From: an uncultured Lachnospiraceae bacterium
Lineage (GTDB): Bacteria > Bacillota > Clostridia > Lachnospirales > Lachnospiraceae
Length of the DNA stretch: 64,000 bases
Assembly (NCBI GenBank): GCA_902777355.1
Contig: CACYTU010000001.1
Span: 1 to 64,000, forward strand
Reading direction: 5' to 3'
This document shows, piece by piece, positions 5,746-61,442 of this stretch; position 1 is the first letter of the stretch; each line of letters starts with the position of its first letter. Under the pieces are notes generated by a model, which saw only the letters and a program-made list of their open reading frames with translations, was not told the origin of the DNA and ran no database searches. The translations under genes were made by a program, and so were the position numbers.

Positions 5746-7281
5746 ATGAAAAAGGAGTGGCTTAAGAGATCTTGCTGCTGTCTGTTTTTTTTATCGCTGC
5801 TGTGTTCATGTTTTCTGTTCACGGATGTCCGGGCGGAAACAGTGACCCGGTACTTCGGAGACGTGAATGGAAACGGGAGGATCGACGAAGATGACGCGCA
5901 TATGATCAGGCTGCATATTGCTGCGCAGAACAGTGAGGAGACAGCTGAGAAAAATCCTGATTGGATTCTTGAAGGTATCGAGCTTGAAGCGGCTGATGCC
6001 AACCGGAGCGGAGAGATTGATTTAGGGGATGAACAAAAAGTCAAACGGCATATTATGGCAGAAGATGACGATGCTGTTTATGAGGAACACCCGGACTGGA
6101 TCATTTCCGAGACATTCTCTTATGAAGTGACGGACGATCAAGAGGAAGAGGAAGCGGAAGTCCTGAGCATGGAACAGTTTGGAATTCCGTATGGTTATTA
6201 TGAAGGCGGTATTCCTATGGGGGACGGCGTCTTCTTTGCGGAGGGGGATCTGAACAGTGACGGGACCTTCCGGATGCAGAGCGATTCGGAACCTCTTTTT
6301 GACGAGACAGATGAGGGCAGAGGCAGTGATATATTCACTTATTCAGGCACTTATTGGGTGGATTACATCGATGAAGCCGGAAGGCCGGTCTTACATTTCA
6401 GCTGTGATGTTCAGGATTTTCAGATGACCTGGAAAGAGGATTCCGGAGGAAATCATTATCTCGATCATGACAGATTCTTTCTGAATCCGTCTTCCGAGGG
6501 GACTTCACAAAACGATACAGATGTTAATGGCGGAAATGAAGATACGGAAAGCGATTACGTTGTGTTTCCGGACAGAGCCCTGGACTATGCAGTGCACAGA
6601 TCCATGGGAATCTCGCAGGGGAAAAAGATCTCAAAGGAGGAGGCCCGGTCGACCAGAAGCCTGAACTTGTCCGGTGGAGAGCATAACGACTATGGATGGA
6701 TCGAGAATCTTGAAGGCCTTGCCTGCTTCACAGGGCTGGAGAAGCTATATTTGGATGATAACATAATCACCGATGTCACGGAGCTGCGAGGGCTGACCGG
6801 ATTAAAGGAACTGAATCTGGAGAAGAACTGCGTTCAGAACGTTGATGCGCTCAGCGGATTGACAAATCTGACTTATCTCGACCTCTATTATAATAATATC
6901 AATGATATCAGCCCGCTTCGCAATCTCACAAATCTGGAAAGATTTGATGCCAGGGGAAATCACCTGATGTCTGTAGAGATCCTCCGGAATATGAAAAAAA
7001 TGAAAAAGCTGTATCTCTCGACAAATAATATTCAGGATGTATCCCCGCTTGCCGGACTCACCAGACTCACATACCTTAGCCTGAACGAAAACCAGGTCAA
7101 TGATGTCAGTATGCTTGGGGGGCTGACGAAGATCCACGAATTCTGTGTCCGTGACAATGACATAAGAGATATCAGTGTAGTTTTAAATTATCCGAAGCTG
7201 TACTGGCTGGAGATTTCCGACAACCCTAACCTTGACAGATCTCCTTTAAAACAGCTTTCTGACAAGGTAAAGATCAAATGA
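5746..7281 (+). CDS. Secreted dockerin-like / leucine-rich repeat protein
   Basis: 511 residues; AAGGAGG precedes ATG 5746. The signal peptide (KK start, hydrophobic core with a CCC cluster) likely ends at VRA-E near residue 30. Residues ~37-110 contain two dockerin-type/EF-hand calcium loops, DVNGNGRIDEDD and DANRSGEIDLGD, each followed by a helix, as in type I dockerins. A middle region (~130-260) has no recognised domain. From ~300 to the end there are at least seven 22-residue leucine-rich repeats of internalin type (LxxLxxLxLxxNxIxDIxPL). Such proteins are exported and bind proteins or scaffolds. No LPXTG, SLH or other anchor is seen, so attachment may go through the dockerin-like part. 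A cohesin partner would lie outside the window. Confidence 0.85.
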   Translation: MKKEWLKRSCCCLFFLSLLCSCFLFTDVRAETVTRYFGDVNGNGRIDEDDAHMIRLHIAAQNSEETAEKNPDWILEGIELEAADANRSGEIDLGDEQKVKRHIMAEDDDAVYEEHPDWIISETFSYEVTDDQEEEEAEVLSMEQFGIPYGYYEGGIPMGDGVFFAEGDLNSDGTFRMQSDSEPLFDETDEGRGSDIFTYSGTYWVDYIDEAGRPVLHFSCDVQDFQMTWKEDSGGNHYLDHDRFFLNPSSEGTSQNDTDVNGGNEDTESDYVVFPDRALDYAVHRSMGISQGKKISKEEARSTRSLNLSGGEHNDYGWIENLEGLACFTGLEKLYLDDNIITDVTELRGLTGLKELNLEKNCVQNVDALSGLTNLTYLDLYYNNINDISPLRNLTNLERFDARGNHLMSVEILRNMKKMKKLYLSTNNIQDVSPLAGLTRLTYLSLNENQVNDVSMLGGLTKIHEFCVRDNDIRDISVVLNYPKLYWLEISDNPNLDRSPLKQLSDKVKIK

Positions 7282-7309
7282 TGTTCTCATCCAAATGATC
7301 TTCTCATCC
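7276..7309 (+). repeat. 17-nt tandem duplication spanning the stop codon
   Basis: Two copies (7276-7292 and 7293-7309; 16 of 17 identical) of an AAATGATSTTCTCATCC unit. The first contains the LRR gene's TGA (7279-7281). Confidence 0.8.
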
Positions 7310-7394
7310 TAGTACGGTTTCATTCAAATTAAAATGAAAGCACCATGGACGCTGACTTGATCTGCATGTGAAGTGATCGGGAAAATGGAAAATT

Positions 7395-7458
7395 GGGGAG
7401 AGACGGACACGCCGCCCTCCCCCGACCGGTCCGCGTCAGCCGGTCATTTATTCCGGCC
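7395..7458 (+). repeat. Partial copy of the dispersed structured element
   Basis: The first hairpin (GGGGAGAGACGG / CCGCCCTCCCC) and the CCGACCGGTCCGCGT linker match the full copies. The 3' half departs from the consensus after the second-stem arm. Lies between the LRR and phosphorylase-like genes. Confidence 0.6.
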
Positions 7459-7516
7459 AATTTTGTTCATTTTGTAAAAGTAGTGTGCAGGTTCACTGAA
7501 AGGATGATTCACTGAG

Positions 7517-8299
7517 ATGAAAGATAATAACTACCATACAGATGTGGCGCTGCTCAGCGTGACCAATCTCGAATTTGCCGCCGTGACCTATTTTCACAAC
7601 TGGAAAGCCAAAACCCTTAGCGGTGATGACCAGATCTATGATGTGGCGACCTTTGAGAGGGAAGGCAAGACCCGTACGCTGGTACACGCCAAGCTGGACG
7701 AGATGGGCATGACCGCTGCTGCAGCCACAGCCATGAAGGTAATCTATGAGTTCCGCCCCCGATATCTCATTATGGTAGGAATCGCGGCGGGCATTGCTTT
7801 GGACAATGTAGTGGCGGAACAGATGTACGGCGACGTAGTGGTGCCCAATATAGTCTGGAATTACTCCGCCGGAAAATTTGTGAGCCCGGATAAATCCGGA
7901 ATCACCTTCGGGGATGTTGGATTTCAGCCTAAATCCACCTATGTCTCTATTCCGGAGGAAATCATGCCCTTTATCAAAAAGGCGGTGGATTCCGAAGAAA
8001 ACGAATGTCACGTGCATATCGGTCCCATGGCCTGTGGCAGTACGGTGGTCGCGAATCGGAAAGTTCTGGAGAAGCAGATCCACTCACAGCTGAGCAGCAC
8101 TGTGGGACTGGATATGGAATCCTATGCAGTGGTTTATGCGGCTTATCACGCCCCTAAACCCAGACCGGTTCCTATCATTGTAAAAAGCGTATGTGATTTC
8201 GCCAACAGCGAAAAGTCTGATGAATATCAGAAATTTGCGGCGTATACAAGCTGTGAGTTTGCGAAATTTCTCTATGAAAAGTTTCTTCCTATGGACTGA
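7517..8299 (+). CDS. Nucleoside phosphorylase superfamily protein (PNP_UDP_1 / MTA-SAH nucleosidase-like)
   Basis: 260 residues. Seen directly: the MVGIAAGI glycine-rich segment (~91-98), the GPMACGSTVV strand, and GLDMESYAV (~198-206), the substrate-binding MES motif typical of the family, followed by VKSVCDFAN, the position of the catalytic acid. The family cleaves N-glycosidic bonds of purine nucleosides, MTA/SAH or uridine. Subfamily and substrate cannot be told apart by eye; the length fits a stand-alone enzyme. AAAGGA at 7499 is ~12 bases from the ATG, a weak site. Terminator-like hairpins follow at 8314 and 8411. Confidence 0.75.
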   Translation: MKDNNYHTDVALLSVTNLEFAAVTYFHNWKAKTLSGDDQIYDVATFEREGKTRTLVHAKLDEMGMTAAAATAMKVIYEFRPRYLIMVGIAAGIALDNVVAEQMYGDVVVPNIVWNYSAGKFVSPDKSGITFGDVGFQPKSTYVSIPEEIMPFIKKAVDSEENECHVHIGPMACGSTVVANRKVLEKQIHSQLSSTVGLDMESYAVVYAAYHAPKPRPVPIIVKSVCDFANSEKSDEYQKFAAYTSCEFAKFLYEKFLPMD

Positions 8300-15643: not shown

Positions 15644-18163
15644 ATGATTAAAAGACCGGCTATCGAATTCGACAAAGACCTTTTTAAGAGAAGTGTTGAA
15701 TATAATGTTCGTACAATGTATCGCCGCACCATGAAGGAAGCTACAGACCAGCAGGTCTTCCAGGCATCCGCGCTTGCACTGAAAGACCAGATCATTGACT
15801 GCTGGATGCGCACGCAGAAGGCTTTTGATGATCAGGATCCCAAAAAACTGGTTTATCTTTCGATGGAGTTCCTGATGGGACGCGCTTTCGGAAATGACGC
15901 GATCAACCTGATGGCCTATCAGCCTATTGCCGATGCGCTCAAGGAACTTGGTTTCAAGATGAACGCCATCGAGGATCAGGAACCGGACGCAGCCCTCGGA
16001 AACGGCGGTCTCGGACGTCTCGCAGCCTGCTTCCTGGATTCCCTCGCGACTCTGAACTATGCTGCCTACGGCTGCGGAATCCGCTACCACTACGGCATGT
16101 TCAAGCAGAAGATCGTGGACGGATTCCAGAAGGAAGTGCCGGACAACTGGCTTGAGAACGGAAATCCCCTTGAGCTGCGCCGCCCCGAGTATACCCAGAT
16201 CGTCCGTTTCGGCGGTCATCCCGTCAGCTACTACGATGAGAAGCTGGGCCGCAATATGTATCGCCTCGAGGGATACAGCGAAGTCAAGGCTGTCCCTTAC
16301 GATATGCCTGTCATCGGCTACGGCAATGGATTTGTCGATACCCTGAGAATCTGGGACGCACAGCCCGTCGAGAGCTTCAAGCTCGATTCCTTCGACAAGG
16401 GCGACTATCAGAAAGCGGTTGAGCAGGAATACCTTGCAAGGACTATCTGCGACGTTCTCTATCCCAATGACAACAACTACCAGGGCAAAGAGCTTCGTCT
16501 GAAACAGCAGTATTTCTTCGTCTCTGCTTCCCTGCAGTCCATGATCCAGAAATACCTGCAGACTCATGATGATATCAAGAAGCTGCCTGAGAAGATCGTC
16601 TTCCAGATGAATGACACACATCCCACTCTGGTCGTTCCCGAGCTCATGCGTCTGCTGATGGACGAGCATGAACTGACATGGGATGAAGCATGGGAAGTGA
16701 CGACACACTGCACAGCTTACACCAATCACACGATCATGGCGGAAGCACTTGAGAAATGGCCCATCGACCTCTTCTCACAGCTGCTGCCCAGAATCTATCA
16801 GATCGTTGAGGAGATCAACCGCAGATTTGAGCGCGAGATCCACAAGGCCTATGACAATACCGGCGTGAATGTCAACGACAAGATCCGCAGCATGGGCATT
16901 GTCTACGACCAGCAGGTCCGCATGGCCAATATGGCGATCGTGGCAGGCTACAGCGTCAACGGTGTTGCCAGACTCCATACTGAGATCCTCAAGAATCGTG
17001 AGCTCAAGGACTTCTACGAGATGTTCCCGGACAAGTTCAACAACAAGACCAACGGCATCACGCAGAGGCGTTTCCTCCTTCACGGCAACCCCCTGCTCGC
17101 GGACTGGATCACCGATCATATCGGCGACGAGTGGATCACTGACCTGTCCCGCATGAGAGAGCTCAGGGTCTATGCGGATGACAAGAGATCCAGAAAGGAA
17201 TTCCTCAACATCAAGTACAAGAACAAAGTCCGCCTTGCGGAATATATCCTGGAGCACAACGGTATTGAAGTCGATCCCAGATCCATCTTCGACGTTCAGG
17301 TAAAACGTCTCCACGAATACAAACGTCAGTTCCTGAACATCCTGCATGTCATGTATCTGTATAACAAGATCAAGCAGGATCCCACACTGGATATTCCCAA
17401 GCATACATTCATCTTCGGTGCCAAGGCGGCCGCAGGCTATGAGACTGCCAAGCTGACCATCAAGCTGATCAACTCGGTTGCCGATGTCATCAACAATGAT
17501 GAGTCCATCGACGATAAGATCAAGGTTGTCTTCATCGAGGATTACAAAGTATCCAACGCCGAGATCATCATCGCTGCAGCAGATATCTCTGAGCAGATTT
17601 CCACAGCCAGTAAAGAAGCATCGGGCACAGGCAACATGAAGTTCATGCTCAACGGCGCGGTGACTCTGGGAACCATGGACGGCGCCAATGTCGAGATCGT
17701 AGAAGAAGTCGGCAAAGAGAATGCCTTTATCTTCGGTCTTTCCTCTGATGAGGTCATGAACTATGAGAAGAACGGCGGTTATGACCCCATGGAAATCTTC
17801 AACACCGACGAAGAGATCCGCCAGGTGCTGGTCCAGCTGGTCAACGGTACATTCTCTCCCGAGAACCCCGAGCTCTTCCGTCCCCTCTACAACAGCCTGC
17901 TGCAGAGAAACGGCATGGATCCCGCGGACCGCTACTTCATCCTCAAGGATTTCCGCTCCTACATCAAGGCGCAGCATGATATCTGTGAGGCTTACAAAGA
18001 CCAGAAGCGCTGGGCTCAGATGGCCATCCTCAACGTGGCACACGTCGGCAAGTTCTCTTCCGACAGAACCATCGAAGAGTATGTCAAAGATATCTGGCAC
18101 CTCGACAAAGTCAAACTTCCCGCAAAGCGCAGGAGAAAAAAGACTGCTACAACAACAGAATAA
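15644..18163 (+). CDS. glgP: Glycogen / alpha-glucan phosphorylase
   Basis: 839 residues, normal for the family. It releases glucose-1-phosphate from alpha-1,4-glucans using pyridoxal phosphate. Seen: EPDAALGNGGLGRLAACF in the N-terminal domain, the QMNDTHPTL and TNHTIMAEALEKW segments, QVKRLHEYKRQ and the PLP-binding EASGTGNMKF, with lysine at residue ~666. The enzyme is cytosolic. The start follows a GGAACGGAGAG site. No other glycogen gene is adjacent. The last residues (KRRRKKTATTTE) are basic and unconserved-looking, and the stop lies in a 20-nt duplication. Confidence 0.96.
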   Translation: MIKRPAIEFDKDLFKRSVEYNVRTMYRRTMKEATDQQVFQASALALKDQIIDCWMRTQKAFDDQDPKKLVYLSMEFLMGRAFGNDAINLMAYQPIADALKELGFKMNAIEDQEPDAALGNGGLGRLAACFLDSLATLNYAAYGCGIRYHYGMFKQKIVDGFQKEVPDNWLENGNPLELRRPEYTQIVRFGGHPVSYYDEKLGRNMYRLEGYSEVKAVPYDMPVIGYGNGFVDTLRIWDAQPVESFKLDSFDKGDYQKAVEQEYLARTICDVLYPNDNNYQGKELRLKQQYFFVSASLQSMIQKYLQTHDDIKKLPEKIVFQMNDTHPTLVVPELMRLLMDEHELTWDEAWEVTTHCTAYTNHTIMAEALEKWPIDLFSQLLPRIYQIVEEINRRFEREIHKAYDNTGVNVNDKIRSMGIVYDQQVRMANMAIVAGYSVNGVARLHTEILKNRELKDFYEMFPDKFNNKTNGITQRRFLLHGNPLLADWITDHIGDEWITDLSRMRELRVYADDKRSRKEFLNIKYKNKVRLAEYILEHNGIEVDPRSIFDVQVKRLHEYKRQFLNILHVMYLYNKIKQDPTLDIPKHTFIFGAKAAAGYETAKLTIKLINSVADVINNDESIDDKIKVVFIEDYKVSNAEIIIAAADISEQISTASKEASGTGNMKFMLNGAVTLGTMDGANVEIVEEVGKENAFIFGLSSDEVMNYEKNGGYDPMEIFNTDEEIRQVLVQLVNGTFSPENPELFRPLYNSLLQRNGMDPADRYFILKDFRSYIKAQHDICEAYKDQKRWAQMAILNVAHVGKFSSDRTIEEYVKDIWHLDKVKLPAKRRRKKTATTTE

Positions 18164-18193
18164 TAATTACAGGAACAAAATAATAATTACCTG
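18154..18193 (+). repeat. 20-nt tandem duplication spanning the glgP stop
   Basis: Two copies (18154-18173, 18174-18193; ~17 of 20 identical) of an AACARAATAATAATTAC unit; the first contains the TAA at 18161-18163. Confidence 0.75.
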
Positions 18194-18369: not shown

Positions 18370-18377
18370 TGTTTATC

Positions 18378-18490: not shown

Positions 18491-19633
18491 TTGGAACCTT
18501 TAAAAATTATTGTCTTATGCGGGGGACTGAGTACGGAGAGAAATATCTCTTTTCTGACCGGTTCACGCGTCTGCGCCGCTCTCAGAAGCCGCGGACACAG
18601 AGCAGTTCTGACGGATCTGTATCTTGGATTTGAAGAACTGGGGGGAGAACAATACAAAAAGGCAGTGAAGGGCGGAAAACTTGATGCCGATGTGCTTTTT
18701 TCCGATCTGCCGCCCATACCCGCCTTCTCATTTGACGGGCAGGCGCCGGACCTGGAGGCTGTCAGGCAATCCAGGAAATGGAAGAACCCCTCACTCTTCG
18801 GCAATCATGTTCTTGAAGCATGCAGGGCAGCGGATATTGTCTTTGTCGCCCTGCACGGAAAAAACGGTGAGGACGGACGTGTTCAGGCGGCCTTTGATAT
18901 GATGGGAATCCCCTATACCGGTTCCGGATACCAGGGGGCGGCCATGGCTATGGACAAGATGATCACCAAAATGATCGTCAGTTCGCGCGGTGTGAGAACC
19001 CCTGCTTTCAGGAGATGGGATTTCATGCCTTCCCGGGACGCTGCCGGCAATCCTGAAACACTGAAAAAGGAAACAGACAGGTTTGTACACTCTGTCTGCA
19101 GGCAGACCGGGATCCCCTGTGTGGTCAAAACACCTGACGGAGGTTCTTCCGTGGGCGTGTATATCGTGCACAAAAAAGAGAAACTGGCACCCGCGGTGCG
19201 CTCCTGCCTCGAATATGGATATTCCTTCATGGTCGAGCAGTTTATCGAAGGAAAAGAGCTCACGTGCGGAGTCCTCTGTGGCAGGGCCCTTCCTTCCGTG
19301 GAAATCGTTCCCAAAGTCCGTTTTTATGATTACTCCAACAAATATGTGGCGGGCGCAACTGAGGAAATCTGCCCCGGACGCGTCAGCGAGGAGATCGAAA
19401 AGGAGATAGGCAGAATAGCTCTCAGCGTCCATGAGATCATGGGACTGCGGACTTATTCCCGCAGTGACGTCATCCTGGACGAAGAGGGAAAGGTCTGGTT
19501 TATCGAGGTCAATACCCTTCCCGGCATGACAGCGACCAGCCTGGTGCCCCAGGAGGCCGCCAAAATCGGGATCGGATATGAAGATCTTTGTGAAATGATC
19601 GTACAGGATGCTCTTTCCGGAAAGCGGGAATAA
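18491..19633 (+). CDS. ddl: D-alanine--D-alanine ligase
   Basis: 380 residues from TTG 18491; GGAGG at 18479-18483 is 7 bases upstream, better than the GTG at 18443 inside the repeat element. It joins two D-Ala for peptidoglycan. ATP-grasp features seen: VLCGGLSTERNISF at the N-terminus, ALHGKNGEDG (~115-124), GSGYQGAAMAMDK, TPDGGSSVGVY, EGKELTCGVL, and the Mg-binding FIEVNTLPGMT near the C-terminus. murF lies directly downstream, the next enzyme in the pathway. The stop codon lies in the first unit of a 13-nt tandem array. Confidence 0.95.
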   Translation: MEPLKIIVLCGGLSTERNISFLTGSRVCAALRSRGHRAVLTDLYLGFEELGGEQYKKAVKGGKLDADVLFSDLPPIPAFSFDGQAPDLEAVRQSRKWKNPSLFGNHVLEACRAADIVFVALHGKNGEDGRVQAAFDMMGIPYTGSGYQGAAMAMDKMITKMIVSSRGVRTPAFRRWDFMPSRDAAGNPETLKKETDRFVHSVCRQTGIPCVVKTPDGGSSVGVYIVHKKEKLAPAVRSCLEYGYSFMVEQFIEGKELTCGVLCGRALPSVEIVPKVRFYDYSNKYVAGATEEICPGRVSEEIEKEIGRIALSVHEIMGLRTYSRSDVILDEEGKVWFIEVNTLPGMTATSLVPQEAAKIGIGYEDLCEMIVQDALSGKRE

Positions 19634-19797
19634 GAGACGTAAATAAGGGTCGCCAAAAAGGGACGCCAATAAGGTACCCCAATAAGAGATGCCAAAAAGG
19701 GACGCCAATAAGAGACGCCAATAAGGGACGCCAATAAGAGATGCCAAAAAGGGACGCCAATAAGAGACGCCAATAAGAGATGCCGATAAGAGTGCCG
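19630..19797 (+). repeat. 13-nt tandem array between ddl and murF, 13 copies
   Basis: Units of the form ATAAGRGACGCCA, the last shortened. The first unit contains the ddl stop TAA (19631-19633). A 13-nt period shifts frame, so it is not coding on the plus strand. The rest of the gap to 19927 shows no other signal. Confidence 0.95.
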
Positions 19798-22433: not shown

Positions 22434-23354
22434 ATGCAGCAGAAAAATGCGGCAGACAGATTGTCGCCGCTTTACATCATAATCGCCGGAGCCCTCTGGG
22501 GGAGCATGGGACTTTTTGTGCGCCGTCTGGGAGATGCCGGCTGTAATTCCGCCGAGATCGCCCAGCTGCGAAGCCTGGTGACGGCAGTGATCCTTTTTCT
22601 GTTCCTGATCATAAAAGAAAGGGATCTTCTGCGGATCCGCCTGCGCGACATCTGGTGTTTTGTCGGCACCGGAGTTCTGAGCATCGTCTTTTTTAACCTG
22701 TGCTACTTCACCACTATTGAACTGACTTCCCTCTCAGTGGCCGCTGTTCTGCTGTATACGGCACCGGCTTTTGTCATCGTGCTCTCCGCCATCCTCTTTA
22801 AGGAACAGATTACAAAAAGAAAGGTGATCGCTCTGATCCTGACCTTTGTGGGCTGCGTGTGCGTGAGCGGACTCATCCGCGGCGGAGCGTCAATGACCCT
22901 GAAGGGCTTTCTGGTCGGAATCGGAGCGGGAGTCGGATACGCACTCTACTCTATTTTCAGCCGTTTCGCGCTCGAAAAGGGGTACAGCAGCCTGACCATT
23001 TCTTTTTACACATTCTTTTTTGCGGTCTTCGGAACGATCCCCTTTGTCTCCATGAGCAGGGTCCTGCACTCAGTCACGACATCTGCGGGGCAGACCGCTT
23101 TTATTCTGCTGTTCGGCATTATCACCACAGTGCTTCCCTATCTCTTATATACCAAAGGGCTGGAGGGCGTCGAGAACGGGAAGGCCTCCATTCTGGCTTC
23201 TGTAGAACCGGTTGTGGCGACCATCTTGGGTACGCTGGTATTTCATGAGATGCTTCATCTGGATGAAATTTGCGGCATTCTCCTGATACTGGGAGCCATA
23301 CTCATCAGCAACCGGTCCTCATCAGTAACCGAACATGACCAACAGCCAATCTGA
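22434..23354 (+). CDS. EamA/DMT-family membrane transporter
   Basis: 306 residues from ATG 22434, where GGAGG lies 8 bases upstream; the frame is open to 22302 but that part has no site. Ten hydrophobic segments form two repeated five-helix EamA units, with a GALWGSMGLFVR start and ILASVEPVVATILGTLVFHE near the end, both typical of drug/metabolite exporters. Substrate unknown. GGGGCCTGCGGCCCC (22408-22422) makes a hairpin that reaches the ribosome binding site. Confidence 0.85.
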   Translation: MQQKNAADRLSPLYIIIAGALWGSMGLFVRRLGDAGCNSAEIAQLRSLVTAVILFLFLIIKERDLLRIRLRDIWCFVGTGVLSIVFFNLCYFTTIELTSLSVAAVLLYTAPAFVIVLSAILFKEQITKRKVIALILTFVGCVCVSGLIRGGASMTLKGFLVGIGAGVGYALYSIFSRFALEKGYSSLTISFYTFFFAVFGTIPFVSMSRVLHSVTTSAGQTAFILLFGIITTVLPYLLYTKGLEGVENGKASILASVEPVVATILGTLVFHEMLHLDEICGILLILGAILISNRSSSVTEHDQQPI

Positions 23355-23435
23355 TTCAGAAGCGGGTCTGATTCAGAAGCCGGCCTGATTCAGAAGCCGG
23401 CCTGATTCAGAAGCCAGCCTGATTCAGAAGCCGGT
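23351..23435 (+). repeat. 17-nt tandem array spanning the transporter stop, 5 copies
   Basis: CTGATTCAGAAGCSRGY units. The first contains the TGA stop at 23352-23354, and every unit carries the TGA. Confidence 0.95.
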
Positions 23436-23542
23436 CAGATGCAGCCGGTTTGGTTTGACTGGATAAATAAGCGGTAATGTCTTAACTTAATCCCGATAAA
23501 AAATAAGATAAAAAATAGGCTGAAGAAATCTTTTTCTGCCGG

Positions 23543-25163: not shown

Positions 25164-26588
25164 ATGTATAGACTGACTTCAAAACTGATTATTTACAGGG
25201 AAATCGGCGAAGACAGTATCCTGATGAGACTGTCGGATGTCTGCAGGCGGTTTGACCGGGGAGACTATGACAAAGAAGCACTCACAGCTATGGTACTGGA
25301 TCAGATTCACCGTCTGCTGGACCTGGCGACCCGCTATGGGTTCGACCGGAATCTGTGGCACAATTATCTGGCCTTTCTGCTCGCCATGACCGAGACTCCT
25401 TTTACACTTGTTTCCGAAAAAGTGGGCGCCAACGAGGGCTCGGTCAATCACTTTGTCAAAAATGACCTGCGGGTATTCCGTCAGTTGTTTGACTATGATT
25501 TTTCACCTATCGAGAAGGCGCTGGAGACAGATGTTTTTTCCATCATAGAAAATTATCATGCCGTGGGCAAAAAGGAGAGGGTCTATAACCGGAGTGTCAG
25601 TGAAAAGGTAAGGGCTCTCAGCAGCAGCCTGGAGCAGGCTTCGGACGAAGAAGATATGTACCGGATCATCACAGATTTTTACCGCAACTACGGGGTAGGC
25701 ATGTTCGGACTGAACAAGGCCTTCCGGATCAATGAGCGGTGGAGCAACTCCCCGGAGAGTGCCTCTTCCGACAGCCGTGGAATTGCCGGAGGAGGACAGC
25801 GCGCGGGAGTTTCCCCGTCAGCAGGCCCTTCGGTGGACTATGCTGCGGCGGGTGAGGACGATTTCCTGATCCCGATTACAGCAACCAGCGATGTGGTCCT
25901 GGACGACCTGATCGGATATGAGCTGCAGAAAGAGAAGCTGATCGCCAACACCGAGGCCTTCGTCAGCGGCCGGGCAGCCAACAATGTCCTGCTCTATGGA
26001 GACGCCGGCACAGGCAAGTCCACCAGTATCAAAGCCATACTGAACCAGTATTATGACCGTGGTCTTCGGATGATAGAAGTCTACAAGCACGAGTTCCGCT
26101 ACCTGCAGCGGATACTGGCGGAAGTCAAAAACCGCAATTACCGCTTTATCATTTACATGGATGATCTCTCATTTGAAGAATTTGAGATCGAGTACAAATA
26201 TCTCAAGGCGGTCATAGAGGGAGGTCTTGAGACCAGACCGGAAAACGTGCTGATCTACGCGACATCCAACCGCAGACACCTGATCCGTGAGACATGGTCC
26301 GACCGGTCTGACCGCTCGGATGATGAGCTGCACCGCTCCGACACCCTGCAGGAAAAACTTTCTCTTGTGGCCCGCTTCGGCATTTCAATAGGCTACATGA
26401 AGCCTTCTCACAAAGAATATCTGCACATCGTAAGCGAGCTGGCCAAACGATATCCTCAGATTTCCCTCTCCGAAGAGGAACTCACACTGAAGGCAAACCA
26501 GTGGGAACTCAGGAGCGGGGGAGCCTCCGGACGCGCCGCCCAGCAGTTTATCGACTTCCTTGCGGGAACAGCTGTCCAACCGGAATAA
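25164..26588 (+). CDS. AAA-type ATPase of the DUF815 family
   Basis: 474 residues; GGAGG 10 bases before the ATG. An N-terminal helical region (1-~180) is followed by a Ser/Gly-rich linker and an ATPase core: Walker A GDAGTGKS at 279-286, Walker [12 protein letters not shown] at ~329-339, and a sensor-like [10 protein letters not shown]. The gap between Walker motifs and the DDLSFE form match DUF815. Members are common in Clostridia; their function is not established. It stands alone, between the structured element upstream and an 81-nt repeat at its stop. Confidence 0.85.
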
Positions 26589-41301: not shown

Positions 41302-41544
41302 GATTGCAAAACACAGGACATCTTATTATAATGATATCGATTTTTTGATGATTTCGAATAATCTTTAATTAGAACATATATGCCCTGCGCCAGGGGCTCC
41401 ATTTATGTGGAGTCGCAGACGGATTAACTCAGCTCTGCAAAGAAAACCTTTTGTGGATCCCTTTTCAAAGCCATGAGAACCGGGAACCGAATGGAAAAAA
41501 GACGCGGGACGGCTTAAAAATAGAGGACAAAGAGGACTAAGAAA

Positions 41545-43125
41545 ATGTATTGTGCAAAATGTGGCGCCAGACTGGCAGAGGGCGCCAAAAAGTGTGACAA
41601 GTGCGGTGAACCCGTGCGTGCACGTCGCGCTGTTGCATCCAAAAAAACTGAAAAGCATTCAGAGACATCGTTTGATTATGCTCCCGGAAATCTGAATGAA
41701 TCGGACAATTCCAATGAAAAGACCGGTGATTATGTTCCTGCGGATCAGGAAGTCAAAGATCCCGCATTTTGTGAAGAACCCGGGGAGAATGTCGATGTTC
41801 AGTCGATTATCAGGATCGCACATGGCGAAGAGCCGGCTTCCGAAAAGACAGGTTCTGATCCTGAGGACGGAAAAAGGTCTGTTGATTCAAACCGCAGGGG
41901 AAAGCTTCGCTACGGTGCAGTCACCCCTCTGGAGAAAGCGCGCCGCCGAATCGCCGAGATGAGGCATCATCTGGAAGAAACAGCGGAAGAAAAGCGCATG
42001 AACAGGCACATGGAGCGCGCGGCAAAACACTATGAAGAGCTGGGAGCTGCGCCTACCCCGATTTTAAAGTCGGCAGTGAAGAAGACCAGGACCAGGAAGG
42101 ACGGGGATTCCCGGAAATCAGCTGCTGAGTCTGCGGTCCCGACACGGGAAGCAAAGAAAACTGCCGCAAGGCCGGCGGCCCCTGAGCATGAAGGTAAGAA
42201 AGCTGCCGCAAGGCCGGCAGACATTGAGCAGGAAGCTAAGAAAGCTGCTGCCCAAGCCGGTCAGTCTGAAGCAGAAGCCGGAAATGCTGCTGCAGACAGC
42301 GCCGTAAAGGCAGCAGCTATTGAGGAGCAGCTCGCAAAGGAACGCCAGGAAAAGGTCCTCGCGCAGCAGGAAAAACAGGAAAAAGAGGCTCAGAAAGCCG
42401 TCTCGGAAGCAGAAACACCGGATCGAAAAGAAGCCACTGCAGAAGGAGAATCCCCGGCTGGAGAAGCAGCCGCAGAGGGGGAAGCCCTTGACAGCGAGGC
42501 CGCTGAGAGAAAGGCCGTTGAGGAAAAGATCCTGGCCGAACAGAAGGCCAGAGCTGAGCAGAAAGCTGCAGCCCAGCAGGAAGCCGCTGAGAGAGAGGCC
42601 GTCGAGAGAAAGGCCGCCGAGGAAAAGATCCTGGCCGAAAAGAGAGCACGCAAAGCCCTCGAGGATCAGGAGCGCAGGGATCGTGAACGACGTGCACGCA
42701 GCCGGGCAGCTGTCGCGGCGAGAACCATTTCGGAAGAGGAAAAGCAGATTCAGGAAGCCCGCCGTATCCGCAGGTATTATGAAGAGGAATCCGATGCCAT
42801 GGATCTGTTCCTCGACAAATTCGGAATTACCAAGGAGACCGGAGTCAAGATCGCAACGCTCTTCCTGGTCGTCGTCCTGAGCCTGGTCTATGTGATCGGC
42901 CGCAGCAGGTCCGGAGGAAGCAGCAGCGCTTCACCTTCCGGCCAGGGCGAAGCAGGAGAAACCTTCTCTGTATCTCCCGAATCAGAAGAGGGTGATGACA
43001 GCGGCATTTCTGATGACAGTGATCTGCCGACCGGCGGCGGAGATTTCGAGGATTCCCAGTCCGACACAGACGCGCAGCAGGAAGGACCTGACACACAGGA
43101 GCCGACTGAGAACAAAGAACCATAA
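41545..43125 (+). CDS. Zinc-ribbon, coiled-coil membrane protein of unknown function
   Basis: 526 residues. An N-terminal zinc ribbon (C3-xx-C6 ... C17-xx-C20, of the zf-ribbon_3 type) is followed by ~390 residues of Ala/Glu/Lys/Arg-rich sequence likely to form long helices (AEQKARAEQKAAAQQEAAEREA), one transmembrane helix (about 435-453, IATLFLVVVLSLVYVIG), and a short Ser/Glu/Asp-rich outer tail. The topology should put the zinc ribbon and coiled coil in the cytoplasm. GAGGAC before the ATG. It lies 81 bases upstream of an NSS symporter. The function cannot be inferred; envelope or division scaffolding is possible. Confidence 0.8.
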   Translation: MYCAKCGARLAEGAKKCDKCGEPVRARRAVASKKTEKHSETSFDYAPGNLNESDNSNEKTGDYVPADQEVKDPAFCEEPGENVDVQSIIRIAHGEEPASEKTGSDPEDGKRSVDSNRRGKLRYGAVTPLEKARRRIAEMRHHLEETAEEKRMNRHMERAAKHYEELGAAPTPILKSAVKKTRTRKDGDSRKSAAESAVPTREAKKTAARPAAPEHEGKKAAARPADIEQEAKKAAAQAGQSEAEAGNAAADSAVKAAAIEEQLAKERQEKVLAQQEKQEKEAQKAVSEAETPDRKEATAEGESPAGEAAAEGEALDSEAAERKAVEEKILAEQKARAEQKAAAQQEAAEREAVERKAAEEKILAEKRARKALEDQERRDRERRARSRAAVAARTISEEEKQIQEARRIRRYYEEESDAMDLFLDKFGITKETGVKIATLFLVVVLSLVYVIGRSRSGGSSSASPSGQGEAGETFSVSPESEEGDDSGISDDSDLPTGGGDFEDSQSDTDAQQEGPDTQEPTENKEP

Positions 43126-43180
43126 CAAAATCAGGAAGAACCTGATACTCAGAAGCTGACGGAAAGAGAAGCAGCAAAAA
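43081..43180 (+). repeat. 54-nt duplication spanning the zinc-ribbon gene stop
   Basis: GAAGGACCTGACACACAGGA (43081-) recurs as GAAGAACCTGATACTCAGAA (43135-). The first copy contains the last 14 sense codons and the TAA at 43123-43125. Confidence 0.8.
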
Positions 43181-43206
43181 AGAAGGAAAGAAAAGGTATC
43201 GTAATT

Positions 43207-49634: not shown

Positions 49635-49706
49635 GTGTAGCCGCCATCCTCCCAGAATATTTAATTTATGCGCGATATTTTTTCAGCTATTATTACAGGA
49701 CTTCAT

Positions 49707-49805
49707 GACTACGCGATTTCATGATTTCGCAATTACATTATTTCATGATTTCGCAATTGCATTATTTCATGATTTCACAATTGTATTATTGCATGATTTC
49801 ATGCT
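49707..49805 (-). repeat. 24-nt tandem array spanning the oxidoreductase stop (minus strand)
   Basis: Minus-strand units AAATCATGAAATAATGCAATTGCG, ~3.5 copies. The first, diverged unit begins AAAGCATGA and contains the stop (49801-49799). Shows the pattern is not limited to plus-strand genes. Confidence 0.85.
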
Positions 49806-50968
49806 TTCTGCGGCATGGCCGCGGGCAGATCAAAGGTAGAGTCTATGGAGATAAACCTGTGCTCCTTTGCGGAGTTGATTATTGCCTCGCCCACCTCAAG
49901 CGAATGCAGGGCCATGTCGCCGCCGGCCCTGTTGGGACGGCCTTCGGCGATTGCACGGACCAGATCCACAAGGCCGATTCCGCGATTATTGGTCACGAAG
50001 CTGGTCGCGTCGAAATCGTGCTTTACCTCGGCAATTTCCCACGGAATGTCCTCATCCCCCTCGTGACGCGGCATATTTTTCCAGCGGTAGGTCTCGACAG
50101 TTTTTACCAGAGTATCTCCACCGAAGACATTCGGCCCCTTGTTGGGATCCTCCTCCGCCATGACCAGAGTCGCCTTTGTTCCGTACAGCTCCATGCGGGG
50201 CATGACGGAATCCCAGGCATCCCAGATCATGTTGTAACTCACGACAGCCCCGCAGCGGAATTTCAGGACCGCCATCAGTGAGGACATGATCTCCGGGTCC
50301 ACCTTCAGCTTCTGCCCTTTGAGAGGCTCGGAATAGATCATCCGCTCCTGTTCCGGCTGGATTCCCATGGCAGTGACCGATTCCACCGGCCCCAGAAGGG
50401 ACAGAAGAGCAGTCATGTAATAAGGTCCGATATCCAGTACCGGGCCGGCGCCCTTCTGGTAGAAAAATTCCGGGTTGGGATGATACCACTCCCAGCCGTG
50501 GGAGATGCAGTTGGCAGTACCGCCTACGATCTTGCCCGTGACGCCCTCATCGATCAGACGGCGGAAGGTCTGAAGCCTGGCACCCATGAAGGTATCCGGC
50601 GCACATCCCACATACAGCCCCTTCTCAGCTGCGGCTTCCATGATCTCCCTGCCCTCCGCGTAGGTCGCGGCCAGAGGCTTCTCGGAATACACATGCTTGC
50701 CGGCACGCAGCGCGGCAATATTATAGTGATAATGAGCCGCCGGCGTCGTCAGATTCAGGACGACATCCACATCCGGATCCTGAAGCAGTTCATCGCCTGT
50801 ATCATAAGCCTTTTTGAAGCCGTACTGCTCCTTCCTGGCTCTCGCCTTTTCCGGCGTGCGGCAGGCACAGGCATAAAGCTCAACTTCATCCGGATATTTC
50901 TGCAGATTTGTCAGATAGGCATTGCAGATATCCCCAAGACCGATGACACCTATACGTAAAGCTCTCAT
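49799..50968 (-). CDS. Gfo/Idh/MocA family oxidoreductase
   Basis: 389 residues from ATG 50968 (GGAGGGATAT upstream on the minus strand; the frame continues to 51070 without a site). Seen: RIGVIGLGDICNAYL nucleotide fold, TPAAHYHYNIAALRAGKHVYSEKPLA with the EKP motif, and a C-terminal beta-sheet dehydratase-like domain with DIGPYYMTALLSLLG. Members oxidise or reduce sugars and inositols with NAD(P). Substrate unknown; no sugar-uptake genes adjacent. Confidence 0.9.
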   Translation of the reverse strand: MRALRIGVIGLGDICNAYLTNLQKYPDEVELYACACRTPEKARARKEQYGFKKAYDTGDELLQDPDVDVVLNLTTPAAHYHYNIAALRAGKHVYSEKPLAATYAEGREIMEAAAEKGLYVGCAPDTFMGARLQTFRRLIDEGVTGKIVGGTANCISHGWEWYHPNPEFFYQKGAGPVLDIGPYYMTALLSLLGPVESVTAMGIQPEQERMIYSEPLKGQKLKVDPEIMSSLMAVLKFRCGAVVSYNMIWDAWDSVMPRMELYGTKATLVMAEEDPNKGPNVFGGDTLVKTVETYRWKNMPRHEGDEDIPWEIAEVKHDFDATSFVTNNRGIGLVDLVRAIAEGRPNRAGGDMALHSLEVGEAIINSAKEHRFISIDSTFDLPAAMPQKA

Positions 50969-51267: not shown

Positions 51268-51942
51268 ATGTCAGATATTGAAAACAGCGTCAGCAGTATG
51301 CCTTTGATCGGCGATCCCGCCCCCGCCTTCCGCTCTATGACCACAATGGGAAAGGTGAATTTCCCGGAAGACTATCGGGGCAAATGGGTCGTCTTTTTCT
51401 CCCATCCCGCGGATTTTACCCCCGTGTGCACCACAGAGTTCATCGCGCTGGCAAGGCGCGCCGATGAGTTCCGTGAGATTAATACAGAGCTCCTGGGTCT
51501 TTCCATTGACTCACTCCACTCTCATCTTGCATGGGCGGAGAGCATCGAGCACATAGACCTGGGCGGAAAGGGCAAAGTCAAGATTCCTTTCCCGATCGTG
51601 GCGGATATCACCATGAGCGTGGCCAAGGCCTATGGAATGCTTCAGGCTGTTGCCAAGACCCAGACTGTGCGCGCCGTCTTCATCATAGATCCGGATTCGA
51701 TCATCCGCGCCATTCTGTTCTACCCCATGTCCACCGGCCGCAATATTGACGAGATCAAGCGCATCATTCTCTCTCTTCAGAAACATGATGCGGACAACGT
51801 CTCAACGCCCGCGGACTGGAATCCCGGTGATCCCGTTGTCATGGGGGCTCCGCTGACCCTTGAAGCTGCAAAGGACAGAATGGAAAGCGCCGATGATAAC
51901 ATGATTCCCTACAGCTGGTATCTCACGATGAAAAAACAGTGA
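51268..51942 (+). CDS. 1-Cys peroxiredoxin (Prx6/AhpC-TSA family)
   Basis: 224 residues from ATG 51268 (AAAGGAG 11 bases upstream; an in-frame ATG at 51133 would add 45 unrelated residues). The peroxidatic motif HPADFTPVCTTEF places the catalytic Cys at residue 54, and no other Cys is present, so the enzyme must use an external resolving thiol. The long C-terminal domain (NVSTPADWNPGDPV) matches the Prx6 subfamily. It reduces H2O2 and organic peroxides in the cytoplasm. No clear PerR box was seen. Confidence 0.93.
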   Translation: MSDIENSVSSMPLIGDPAPAFRSMTTMGKVNFPEDYRGKWVVFFSHPADFTPVCTTEFIALARRADEFREINTELLGLSIDSLHSHLAWAESIEHIDLGGKGKVKIPFPIVADITMSVAKAYGMLQAVAKTQTVRAVFIIDPDSIIRAILFYPMSTGRNIDEIKRIILSLQKHDADNVSTPADWNPGDPVVMGAPLTLEAAKDRMESADDNMIPYSWYLTMKKQ

Positions 51943-51976
51943 TTGTAAGTATCTCACTGTGAAGAAGCAGTGGCTG
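51919..51976 (+). repeat. 31-nt duplication spanning the peroxiredoxin stop
   Basis: TATCTCACGATGAAAAAACA (51919-) recurs as TATCTCACTGTGAAGAAGCA (51950-). The first copy holds the last seven sense codons and TGA (51940-51942). Confidence 0.8.
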
Positions 51977-52038
51977 AATTGGACAGGAACAGCATTTCCC
52001 GATCAATCAGCCGGTCAATTAACTGATTATTGTGCATA

Positions 52039-52379: not shown

Positions 52380-54305
52380 ATGAGCAGCTACCAGAAATAT
52401 CCTTCCACATATGTGAAGACACATGACGGTGAGCTTCTGGCAGGTTATGACGCCATCATAAGCCGGATCCGACAGGAATATGAGAGCAGTGAAAAAAGTG
52501 ATTTCCTGATCGCCATAGACACCTATCCCGGAGTCTGTGATGATGAAGTTCTTGAAGCCCTGAAAGGGCTTTCCTGCAGCCGACTTTTTAATATGCGGAC
52601 TGTTTTCCGTGGTGAAGAAGAATTGGCGGAGCAGCTGAAATATCATCTCACTGATGACCGTGTCTTCGGAAGGATGTTCTTCGGGGACCTCGAGGACCTC
52701 ATGGATCCGGGCAGGCTGGCCAGGATACGGGAAGATGTGAAGACAGCGGAGGGCCTGTGTATTGTCTACGGATTCGGCGCCTTTCTGGTGGCGTCTCCGG
52801 TTCAGGGACATGCCGGACTGCCAACCGGAACCTGCGAGGACAGGGCTGGCGGAGAGACTGAAGACAGCACCGGATTGCCAGCCGGAGCAGCCGGAGCCGT
52901 CGTAGACAGGGCTGGCGGAGAGACTGAAGACAGTGCCGGACTGCCAATCGGAGCAACCGGAACCGTCGTGGACAATACCATCCGCCGTCCTGACCTCTGC
53001 CTCTATCTGGACATGGCCCGCTGGGAGATCCAGCTCCGCTACCGCAGGGGCATGCCCAATTACAACTGCACCAACTTCGACGAAGATATACTTCGCAAAT
53101 TCAAGAGGGGATATTTCATCGAATGGCGGGTCGCCGACAAGCACAAAATGCGCTGGTTCGACCAGGTCGATTATTTTATTGACTCCAACTGCGCCGGCCA
53201 GCCTAAAATGGTGCCGGGCCCGGCCGTTCGCGATGCCCTGCGGGGGCTCACCGGGCGCCCTTTCCGCACTGTTCCCTATTTTGATCCCGGCGTCTGGGGC
53301 GGACAGTGGATGAAAGAAGTCTGCGGCCTCGACAAAAGCAAGCCCAATTATGCCTGGAGTTTCGACGGCGTCCCTGAGGAGAACTCCCTGCTTCTGGACT
53401 TTGGCAACGGGATTTTCGAACTGCCGGCCATGGACCTGGTCCTGGCATACCCCCGGCAGCTGCTGGGCGAAAAGGTCTATTCCCGGTTCGGCGCCGAGTT
53501 TCCCATCCGCTTTGACTTTTTGGACACCATCGGCGGCCAAAACCTGTCCCTTCAGGTCCATCCCGTGACCGATTACATCCGCCGTCAGTTCGGAATGGCC
53601 TACACCCAGGATGAGAGCTATTACATCCTGGACGCCGCGGAAGAAGCCTCCGTATACCTGGGCCTCAGGCAGGACGCCGATCCCGGGCAGATGTTCGCGG
53701 AACTTGAGCGGGCCAACCGCGGAGAGTGCCTGTTTGACGCGGAAAAATACGTCAACCGATTCCCTGCAAGGAAACATGACCATTTCCTGATCCCGGCGGG
53801 AACCTGCCACGGCGCAGGTTCCGGAACCATGGTTCTGGAGATCAGCGCGACGCCTTATATTTTCACATTCAAACTCTGGGACTGGGGCCGCCTGGGACTT
53901 GACGGAAAGCCACGCCCCGTCCATCTGGAGCACGGACGGCAGGTGCTGCGCGCGGACAGAAAATATGAATGGGTAAAAAAGAACCTCGTCAACGCAGTCC
54001 ATATAGTTAACGATAATGACGATTACACAGAGGAGCATACCGGTCTCCATGAACTGGAATTCATCGAGACCCGCCGTTACACGATCCGCGGCAAGGCGGA
54101 CCTGGACACAGAGAGCAGCGTCAACATGCTGAACCTGGTGGAGGGAAGTGCGGCAGTGATTGAGAGTCCCGCCGGCGGATTTGAACCCTACACAGTCCAC
54201 TATGCCGAGACATTTATCCTGCCTGCGAAGGCAGGTCCCTTTACCATCCGCCCAGCCAATAAGGACGAAACGATCATCGTGATACGGGCCTATGTAAGGA
54301 CCTGA
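52380..54305 (+). CDS. Large class I mannose-6-phosphate isomerase-like protein with N-terminal extension
   Basis: 641 residues; GGAGAG before the ATG. The C-terminal half is a type I phosphomannose isomerase: NLSLQVHPVTDY with the zinc-binding Q/H pair, an EFxxxxDE-like stretch, HDHFLIPAGTCHGAGSG with the second zinc His, and a final beta domain. The N-terminal ~270 residues (LIAIDTYPGVCDDEVL..., IVYGFGAFLVASP) resemble the nucleoside/uridine-kinase fold but lack a Walker A, so probably do not bind ATP in the normal way. Between them is a 66-nt (22-residue) in-frame duplication (52839-52970). The enzyme interconverts mannose-6-P and fructose-6-P for mannose use or glycan synthesis. A CpsB-like phosphatase follows. 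Confidence 0.85.
   Translation: MSSYQKYPSTYVKTHDGELLAGYDAIISRIRQEYESSEKSDFLIAIDTYPGVCDDEVLEALKGLSCSRLFNMRTVFRGEEELAEQLKYHLTDDRVFGRMFFGDLEDLMDPGRLARIREDVKTAEGLCIVYGFGAFLVASPVQGHAGLPTGTCEDRAGGETEDSTGLPAGAAGAVVDRAGGETEDSAGLPIGATGTVVDNTIRRPDLCLYLDMARWEIQLRYRRGMPNYNCTNFDEDILRKFKRGYFIEWRVADKHKMRWFDQVDYFIDSNCAGQPKMVPGPAVRDALRGLTGRPFRTVPYFDPGVWGGQWMKEVCGLDKSKPNYAWSFDGVPEENSLLLDFGNGIFELPAMDLVLAYPRQLLGEKVYSRFGAEFPIRFDFLDTIGGQNLSLQVHPVTDYIRRQFGMAYTQDESYYILDAAEEASVYLGLRQDADPGQMFAELERANRGECLFDAEKYVNRFPARKHDHFLIPAGTCHGAGSGTMVLEISATPYIFTFKLWDWGRLGLDGKPRPVHLEHGRQVLRADRKYEWVKKNLVNAVHIVNDNDDYTEEHTGLHELEFIETRRYTIRGKADLDTESSVNMLNLVEGSAAVIESPAGGFEPYTVHYAETFILPAKAGPFTIRPANKDETIIVIRAYVRT
52839..52970 (+). repeat. 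66-nt in-frame tandem duplication in the isomerase gene
   Basis: Two copies encoding DRAGGETEDS-GLP-GA-G-VV blocks, ~90% identical, in the linker between the two domains. Flanking residues hold fainter copies. Confidence 0.9.
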
Positions 54306-54353
54306 GAAGACGCTCCAATGCCGGTAGGACCTGAGAGGACAAGCCAATGATAG
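54294..54353 (+). repeat. 30-nt duplication joining two genes
   Basis: GTAAGGACCTGAGAAGACGC (54294-) and GTAGGACCTGAGAGGACAAG (54324-). The first holds the isomerase TGA (54303-54305); the second supplies GAGAGGA and the ATG (54347) of the next gene. Confidence 0.8.
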
Positions 54354-60642: not shown

Positions 60643-60683
60643 TCAGAACGGAAACCAATATCTATTATAAGACGAAACAAAAA

Positions 60684-60730
60684 CTGCAGGTGAGTCAGGG
60701 GATATCCCATATCTCCTGACTCACCTGCAA
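60684..60730. terminator. Hairpin after the surface protein
   Basis: GCAGGTGAGTCAGG (60686-60699) pairs with CCTGACTCACCTGC (60715-60728) around a GATAT/ATATC inner stem. The T-run is on the minus side; downstream on the plus strand are AACCTGCAACTTGCAACTTG short repeats. Confidence 0.55.
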
Positions 60731-60837
60731 CCTGCAACTTGCAACTTGTAACCTGTAATCCATAACCAATAATCTATAATTTTTGATTAATAACCCATAC
60801 ACCGCAGCCATAGCCGCAAGAAAAACGGAGCCCCCTT

Positions 60838-61314
60838 ATGCACAAAATCGCCGTCATATCCGATACACACAACCTGCTTCGCCCGGAGGTGCTTGACATC
60901 ATCAAGACCTGCGAGCTCATTCTACATGCCGGCGATATATCAAGGCAGGACATACTGGACACGCTCCAGGACTTGAAAAAGGTATACGCCGTTCGCGGCA
61001 ATAACGACAGGGGAGGTTGGACAGCAGACATTCCCTGTTTTCTTGACTTTAATCTATTCGGATGCAGGATTTACATGACCCATATCAAGAGGAATATCCC
61101 CGATGACCATGGAGCGGATCTGGTGATCAGCGGCCACAGCCATCGGTATTCCTGCGTGCAGGATGGAGACACCATTTATCTGAATCCCGGCAGCTGCGGA
61201 CCCCGCAGATTCAACCAGGATATCACCATGGCAATCCTGACGATTGACGAGGAAAAAAAGGCTCCGGGATCAGGTGCCGCTATTTCCATTGAGCGGATAG
61301 ACATTCCGCACTGA
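60838..61314 (+). CDS. Metallophosphoesterase, YfcE/MJ0936-like
   Basis: 158 residues. The calcineurin-like dimetal site is complete: SDTHN, LHAGDIS, GNNDRGG, MTHIK and SGHSHR, then NPGSCGPRR typical of YfcE. These are cytosolic phosphodiesterases with broad activity on model substrates; the physiological substrate is unknown. GGAG 8 bases before the ATG. The gene end is duplicated downstream. Confidence 0.9.
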   Translation: MHKIAVISDTHNLLRPEVLDIIKTCELILHAGDISRQDILDTLQDLKKVYAVRGNNDRGGWTADIPCFLDFNLFGCRIYMTHIKRNIPDDHGADLVISGHSHRYSCVQDGDTIYLNPGSCGPRRFNQDITMAILTIDEEKKAPGSGAAISIERIDIPH

Positions 61315-61442
61315 GGTTTAAAGCTCCGGAATCAGGTGCCACTATATCCATTGAGCGAATCGATATTTCACATTGAATTTTTGACCGGATCTCCATTCCA
61401 CATTGACGTTTTGAGCGGATCTACATTCCACACTGAGGTTTC
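61261..61442 (+). repeat. 62-nt duplication of the phosphodiesterase gene end, plus 30-nt repeats
   Basis: GCTCCGGGATCAGGTGCCGC (61261-) recurs as GCTCCGGAATCAGGTGCCAC (61323-). The first copy holds the last 17 sense codons and TGA (61312-61314). Two further 30-nt units (61383, 61413) repeat its end, and the last supplies GAGG before the next start. Confidence 0.88.

Follow-up and report, generated by a model that had tools for sequence, protein, structure and literature searches.

The window, that is, the whole 64-kb stretch of DNA from an uncultured Lachnospiraceae bacterium that was analysed here, contains 14 gene ends at which a tandem duplication includes the stop codon of the upstream gene in its first copy; unless stated otherwise, all lie on the plus strand. 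The first is a 17-nt unit in 2.1 copies (7275..7309; TRF and alignment) that has the stop of the gene 5746-7281 in its first unit. It is followed by a 20-nt two-copy duplication over the stop of the phosphorylase gene 15644-18163 (18154..18190; 16/17 identical; gene identified with Pfam), a 13/26-nt array, with a 13-nt unit in 12.6 copies, that starts at the stop of a D-Ala-D-Ala ligase-like gene (19629..19792), and a 17/34-nt array over the stop of an EamA-type transporter gene (23344..23444). An 81-nt unit in 2.6 copies takes in the final 6 codons and the stop of a DUF815 ATPase gene (26568..26780), an 11/33-nt array runs over the stop of a family 2 glycosyltransferase gene (30543..30641), and a 35-nt duplication in two copies lies over the stop of the gene 34642-37842 (37835..37889; 17/20 identical). 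The 24/48-nt array at 39603..39757 begins at the stop of a DHH/DHHA2/CBS gene, and a 27-nt array is present at this same stop (39606) in the closest relative, L049. A degenerate 43-nt array starts in the final codons of the Hsp33 gene (41111..41303; 48/65 identical), and approximately 12 final codons, the stop and a spacer of the gene 41545-43125 are present in two copies (43086..43188; 38/52 identical). On the minus strand, a 24-nt array passes over the stop of the gene 49799-50968 (49692..49808). The remaining three sites are a 31-nt two-copy duplication of final codons and stop of the gene 51268-51942 (51918..51973), in which the copied stop reads TGG, a 29-nt two-copy duplication over the stop of the gene 52380-54305 (54297..54349; 20/24 identical), and a 62-nt duplication of 17 final codons plus the stop, followed by a 30-nt array (61261..61441; 45/54 identical). 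For comparison, a 71-nt array at 39937..40091, for which no strand is given, is entirely intergenic and touches no stop, and a 36-nt array at 37490..37787 (plus strand) lies within coding sequence and has a period that is a multiple of three. Genes were called with our own dicodon caller, so that gene starts are approximate.

The duplications noticed by the sequence-only reading are present at all 14 sites. At 13 of these, the stop-spanning local match beats all 200 shuffles (p=0.005 each), whereas the fourteenth, at the stop 51942 (copy 1, 51918-51942; copy 2, 51949-51973), passes a 24-mer test, the local aligner having given no stop-spanning match there because of the TGG in place of the copied stop; TRF alone (score of at least 50) reports an array over just 7 of the 14 stops. 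The units of 11-81 nt, in up to 12.6 copies, agree with the sizes originally read off. By a sensitive test, 15 of the 38 usable gene ends in the window straddle (the listed 14 and the one at 22203), so that the initial estimate of about a third of the genes suits the window; for the sampled genome, it is too high, as 106 of 503 non-overlapping gene ends (~21%) straddle, compared with 6-25 of 529 in five runs of a shuffled control. The window is thus richer in such ends than the rest (15/38 vs 91/491, Fisher p=0.005). With TRF, there are 54 stop-straddling arrays per 611 called genes in 854 kb of the genome.

Could these arrays be copies of a mobile element? A dispersed mobile repeat (REP, STAR or MITE) requires one unit at many loci, and the units are unrelated: for 52 of the 54 arrays that straddle a stop, no other noncoding array gives a match (E 1e-4), which upholds the original view that this is not a mobile repeat, and the same lack of matches at this threshold is found for 239 of all 251 noncoding arrays. 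The two related stop-straddling arrays match a neighbouring array and, in the case of C13:43214, an array elsewhere. Copies are ~74-96% alike (10th-90th percentiles), with a median copy match of 85-89% in all three array classes (genic, stop-straddling and intergenic). An assembly artefact is unlikely because the copies within arrays differ from each other.

Against a crude null, stop-straddling arrays are in clear excess (36 vs 11.6 and 18 vs 9.5 expected, in 854 kb), and a looser overlap rule with rotated positions gives the same picture (37 vs 12.4 at stops, 8 vs 12.8 at starts). This excess vanishes once the null spares proteins and a flank of 30-50 nt before each start: 44 of 217 arrays straddle stops, the expectation being 39.8 with a 30-nt and 47.7 with a 50-nt flank, and in G008 the figures are 12 of 64 compared with 12.6 or 15.2. 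This null took in 217 of the 251 noncoding arrays (64 of 70 in G008), arrays at an edge or lacking two well-scored flanking genes being left out, and the width of the protected zone was picked after the start profile had been seen; if no 5' zone is protected, more arrays straddle stops than expected (44 vs 25.1, z 4.3), and with an 80-nt zone their number is overpredicted (59.1 expected vs 44 observed). With 50 nt protected, the first set yields 33 of 118 against 28.6 expected and the second set 11 of 99 against 19.1 (z -2.7), a deficit that also counts against the model. Convergent gene pairs, for which no protected zone is needed, show 9 of 29 against 5.2 expected (z 1.9), an excess that comes from the first set (8/17 vs 3.0, z 3.3; second set, 1/12 vs 2.2). 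Furthermore, when true stops are paired with pseudo-stops 40-200 nt downstream, arrays are not commoner at stops than at these matched noncoding sites: the pseudo-stop and true-stop counts are 100 vs 64 at +40 (n=251), 90 vs 54 at +60 (n=223), 76 vs 48 at +80 (n=198), 58 vs 45 at +100 (n=184), 35 vs 35 at +150 (n=142) and 33 vs 30 at +200 (n=113). With pseudo-stops hit at least as often and the protected-flank null predicting the count, the earlier proposal of a position-specific process at gene ends is not supported. The duplication profile rises through the stop up to a plateau; at starts, its value is 5.3% at position 0 and has risen to 18.7% by 64 nt upstream. The units of arrays across stops have the greater median length (35.5 vs 24.5), in line with length-biased sampling, which predicts 37.5 (95% range 29.5-46).

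These observations bear on the possibility that stops are a mutational hotspot, where ribosome release would uncouple transcription from translation and expose the DNA (R-loops, stalled forks). We regard this scenario as unlikely. In its favour, the density of leading edges is ~1.7-fold higher from -20 to +45 (88 per 25,249 positions) than from +45 to +500 (110 per 55,069), with bins of up to 4.65 per 1000 positions; against it, the bin that holds the stop (-3 to +4) has a low value of 1.35 per 1000. Likewise, the excess at convergent pairs and the skew of the stop toward the left edge of the first unit (mean position 0.40, KS p=0.013) are compatible with a hotspot, but pseudo-stops at +40 to +80 exceed true stops within the same regions and the total agrees with the protected-flank null. 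Comparison of orthologous gene ends cuts both ways: two adjacent genes end in arrays both here and in the closest relative, whereas sharing of stop-end arrays is not seen among 50 orthologous ends, none of which is straddled in both genomes (~1 expected by chance, Fisher p 0.56, a weak test of low power) and 5 of which have an array start within 40 nt in both, with no association (Fisher p 0.35).

Selection that favours repeated stop codons, or spacing or structure of the 3'UTR, which was also suggested from the sequence, appears highly improbable. The period is divisible by 3 in 116 of 123 arrays within genes, in 67 of 186 intergenic ones and in 24 of 54 across stops, the latter share being slightly over a third (p=0.085), as selection for repeated stops might have it, and not clearly in frame. 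A stop is retained at its position in 74 of 96 copies (65 with the same stop, 9 with a different one) and per-base identity among copies is 0.872 at the stop, 0.860 in the coding part and 0.821 beyond the stop, which is compatible with such selection as well; yet the retention of the unchanged stop triplet (65/96, 0.68) falls within the 0.53-0.78 range of the neighbouring triplets, so that stops are kept about as well as their neighbours, and in-frame backup stops find no support in either the period or the triplet test. Folding is hardly stronger in the arrays than in downstream DNA without arrays (median z -1.86 vs -1.23; z below -2 in 39% of 49 arrays vs 31% of 101 array-free stretches), which argues against RNA structure; medians are quoted, the mean z of the intergenic class being spoiled by zero-variance shuffles. 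The triplet and folding tests covered 48 of the 54 stop arrays, with copies sharing 65% or more identity with the first copy; in the other 6, gene scores were weak or the stop lay beyond the unit taken. Moreover, for none of 13 straddling arrays of this genome is there an array across the corresponding stop in G008 or G010. Truncation of in-frame C-terminal repeats by a new stop, with the arrays as leftovers, seems highly improbable too: C3:57549-57732, C13:45907-45994 and the Hsp33 gene with its repeat-rich tail do have this appearance, but in 30 of the 54 straddling arrays the unit length is not divisible by 3, and most comparable proteins of the window end where their orthologues end. Specifically, an orthologue reaching the gene end was found, within the stretches compared, for 9 of the 14 window genes, and in 6 of these 9 the protein ends within ~6 residues of its orthologues, which thus lack the longer C-termini that truncation would predict. 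The claim that protein ends are preserved holds for these six; the protein end of the gene ending at 23354 ranges from -12 to +6 among orthologues, the protein of the gene ending at 41128 is 17-22 residues longer than all three orthologues, and that of the gene ending at 43125 is 12-22 residues longer than four of five.

The explanation that we consider most probable is head-to-tail duplication across the entire genome, filtered by purifying selection, with no process specific to stops. Segments of ~10-80 nt anywhere in the genome are duplicated head-to-tail, probably through strand slippage during replication or through recombination at short direct repeats, after which copy number would expand and contract and the copies would diverge. 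From the observed positional pattern, we infer that selection sets where arrays persist: within genes, almost only multiple-of-three units survive; just upstream of start codons, arrays are scarce, and those crossing starts are mostly lost; in other noncoding DNA, they persist freely. A stop-spanning duplication retains, in its first copy, the coding sequence and stop as they were, which leaves the protein unchanged, and the stop presents no barrier; hence arrays traverse stops at about the rate of other noncoding sites. Most likely, then, arrays cross gene ends in the repeat-rich genome of this gut bacterium because duplication there spares the protein. Owing to the geometry of tandem duplication, arrays are tolerated at the 3' edge of a gene but not at its 5' edge, and repeats through stops need no stop-specific mechanism. 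The earlier idea of slippage tolerated only from the stop outward comes close to this explanation.

The unusual feature is the density of the arrays. There are 44 per 100 kb in this genome, 27 in G010 and 22 in G008 (both congeners), 5-13 in G004, G013, G015 and G019, and a single array in a 50-kb sample of E. coli MG1655; the zero densities of G006, with both stretches wholly N, and G011, with one of two stretches N and 12 kb readable, carry no weight and little weight, respectively. In coding DNA, the density per 100 kb is 17.7 here, 11.2 in G008, 4.5 in G004, 1.7 in G013 and 10.0 in G015; in noncoding DNA, the respective values are 158, 88, 20, 37 and 51. Given that coding and noncoding arrays are both raised, a higher rate of formation fits at least as well as weaker selection. 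It is conceivable, and we put it forward tentatively, that this Lachnospiraceae clade is a natural short-tandem-duplication mutator, in which duplications of 10-80 nt form several times faster than in relatives and noncoding DNA is rewritten up to the edges of proteins. Absence of MutS, RecJ or exonuclease VII cannot explain the density because the genome has matches above the family cut-off for all three. The long frame of MutS had raised the suspicion of a tandem array within it, but none was found, and the overhangs of 102 high-identity arrays are too mixed to favour either side on microhomology. With ~5% of its sampled DNA in tandem arrays, this lineage might serve as a natural system for studies of duplication formation.

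Minisatellites (VNTRs) that arise by replication slippage resemble the arrays described here in unit size, copy-number range and imperfect copies; the density here is far above that in the E. coli sample. The TAACTGA direct repeats of Beggiatoaceae are, according to the available part of PMC4679880, mostly intergenic, as are the present arrays, but consist of one fixed 7-nt unit located mostly upstream of starts, whereas the units here vary by locus and are scarce near starts. Among the open-licence PMC papers listed by our literature searches, none appears, from its title and the opening of its abstract, to describe such repeats in Lachnospiraceae. The closest signature is that of the tandem repeats of archaeal Borgs, as portrayed in the accessible portion of PMC9879509. 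In common with Borg repeats, units are unrelated between loci, are divisible by three in genes and not in intergenic regions, and are different or absent at orthologous sites (the stop 39606 in L049 excepted). However, Borg units are described in that text as perfect copies, on linear extrachromosomal elements, and as A-enriched, whereas the arrays analysed here lack such SNP-free copies, belong to a bacterial genome and seem just slightly richer in A (fraction 0.318 in the 54 stop-straddling arrays vs 0.272 in 122 array-free downstream stretches).

All 14 sites singled out by the sequence-only reading proved to be duplicated gene ends with the stop inside the duplicate; 13 of them pass a shuffle test, and the fourteenth, in which the copied stop is mutated, passes the 24-mer test. 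According to a scan of ten proteins, the genes at these ends include a phosphorylase, a D-Ala-D-Ala ligase-like enzyme, an EamA transporter, a DUF815 ATPase, a glycosyltransferase, a DHH/DHHA2/CBS protein and Hsp33. Long tandem repeats with multiple-of-three periods are also present inside coding sequences of the window (1-753, 32829-33149, 35407-35979 and 37490-37787).

How common are such arrays across the genome (3.87 Mb, 150 contigs, 84% complete), of which the window is the opening 64 kb of contig 1? We sampled 22% of it, in a first set of 464 kb that includes the window and a second set of a further 390 kb, combining TRF arrays (score at least 50) with a home-made gene caller; the assemblies are drafts and each species is represented by one genome. 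The first set yielded 213 arrays, of which 76 lie within genes, 95 lie between genes, 36 cross a stop, 5 cross a start and 1 crosses both; the second yielded 161 (47, 91, 18, 4 and 1, respectively). A simple random-placement comparison, which takes no account of selection, does show an excess at stops, with 36 observed against 11.6 expected in the first set and 18 against 9.5 in the second. The same comparison gives 12 against 5.4 in the congener G008, 1 against 0.9 in the congener G010, 2 against 0.7 in G004 and 3 against 0.6 in G015; no stop-crossing arrays were found in G003, G013 and G019, where 0.4-0.7 were expected. In a more sensitive test, a downstream copy of stop-spanning DNA accompanies 106 of 503 gene ends, whereas five shuffled runs gave 6-25 of 529, and the window is high in this respect (15 of 38).

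So is there anything special about the stop? Among 367 stop ends and 380 start ends, each with at least 120 nt of intergenic DNA, duplicated 24-mers climb from 15.8% at -16 to 19.6% at the stop and 22-27% at +8 to +64, with 14-17% beyond +120; at starts, the level is 5.3% at position 0 and 18.7% by 64 nt upstream. Under a refined null that collapses expanded copies, protects 5' flanks and places each array randomly within the intergenic region it occupies, the 44 stop crossings among 217 arrays compare with 39.8 expected when 30 nt are protected, 47.7 with 50 nt, 59.1 with 80 nt and 25.1 without protection, the protected width having been picked from the very data on which it was tested. With 50 nt protected, the first set lies above expectation (33 vs 28.6) and the second below it (11 vs 19.1); convergent gene pairs contribute 9 stop-crossing arrays of 29 against 5.2 expected, 8 of the 9 in the first set. 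The pseudo-stop test, in which the stop test is shifted downstream within the same regions, needs no model of protected flanks. Pseudo-stops at +40, +60 and +80 are hit more often than true stops, those at +100 to +200 do not differ significantly from them, and in G008 there is no significant difference at any of six distances. The position-specific process at gene ends proposed from sequence alone is therefore not supported: by this test stops are no hotspot, but simply no barrier. A milder enrichment is left over, the leading edges of arrays being ~1.7-fold enriched in the zone from -20 to +45. The first ~60 nt past stops are ~1.5-fold denser in arrays than deeper intergenic DNA, perhaps because the latter holds promoters and RNAs.

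Of the 123 arrays inside genes, 116 have a period divisible by three, as do 67 of the 186 intergenic ones and 24 of the 54 that cross stops. Straddling units are longer than others, as expected given that long units are likelier to cross a boundary, and 52 of the 54 stop-straddling arrays bear no likeness to any other array. Of 96 copies, 65 retain the stop triplet, which puts it within the range of neighbouring triplets. Later copies are slightly closer to one another (0.866) than to the first copy (0.836), as expected if arrays expand among noncoding copies.

The true oddity is repeat density, rather than stop crossing. There are 43.7 arrays per 100 kb in this genome, 27.0 in G010 and 22.1 in G008, with sparser values in G004 (6.2), G013 (5.0), G015 (13.3) and G019 (5.0); where 12-75 kb of other congeners could be read, the values run from 0 (G011) to 30 (G001), the G006 sample being all N, and one array turns up in 50 kb sampled from E. 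coli MG1655. The higher density is visible in coding and noncoding DNA alike. Three named relatives were reached via one window protein: a Eubacteriales MAG (contig L049, 9.4 kb) and Lachnospiraceae RGIG5640 from sheep duodenum (L051, 21.6 kb), both with ~64 arrays per 100 kb, and uncultured Lachnospiraceae RUG375 (L050), with 28. The RUG in the latter name stands for rumen genomes, from which we infer a ruminant-gut origin. The genome that holds the window has MutS, RecJ and exonuclease VII, so loss of any of these three does not explain its density. In the stretch G000:C12:29900-33900, a 44-nt x 5.8 array precedes the first start of the mutS frame by ~45 nt, and ~80 residues near residue 415 of MutS fall outside the profile match.

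Comparison with G008 and G010 gave 68 reciprocal best pairs, and in 50 of these both sides offer 60 nt or more of intergenic DNA. In these 50, straddling arrays occur in 13 here, 4 there and 0 in both, a weak test given that chance alone would produce ~1 (Fisher p=0.56). Arrays starting at most 40 nt from the stop are found in both members of 5 pairs (p=0.35), and arrays anywhere within 200 nt in both members of 15, fewer than expected (p=0.07). In the closest relative, L049, the counterparts of the two window genes ending at 39606 and 41128 also have arrays at their ends, with different units: one crosses the DHH/DHHA2 stop (5001-5067) and the other begins at the final base of the Hsp33 stop codon (6287-6323). 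At the DHH/DHHA2 end, the copies in both species have CCGGAA where both genes have CCAGAA (read by eye), suggestive of a single old array that later turned over; the two units at the Hsp33 end look unrelated.

Several dispersed sequences were met in passing. The intergenic stretches 18275-18373 and 52036-52126 resemble copies of a single dispersed element, since both hit a number of shared sites in G009, in opposite orientations. Intergenic 7389-7442 has 24 further partial matches in its own genome among the candidates scored, one of them at 18318-18369 on the minus strand. Parts of the stretch 24881-25061, which holds a Clostridiales-1 RNA (RF01699, 101.9 bits), recur at many sites in G008-G010, as though the RNA or the DNA around it were dispersed. 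The stop-straddling array at G000:C13:43214-43531, with a 151-nt unit containing an inverted repeat, is possibly a tandemly duplicated dispersed element; its unit matches an array near 45393 of G000:C2, and G008 has a comparable inverted repeat downstream of one of its genes.

Taken together, stop-straddling arrays are best understood as a normal outcome of unusual repeat abundance. Archaeal Borg elements (PMC9879509) show a similar pattern of tandem repeats, from which the arrays here differ in that their copies are imperfect and the host is bacterial.
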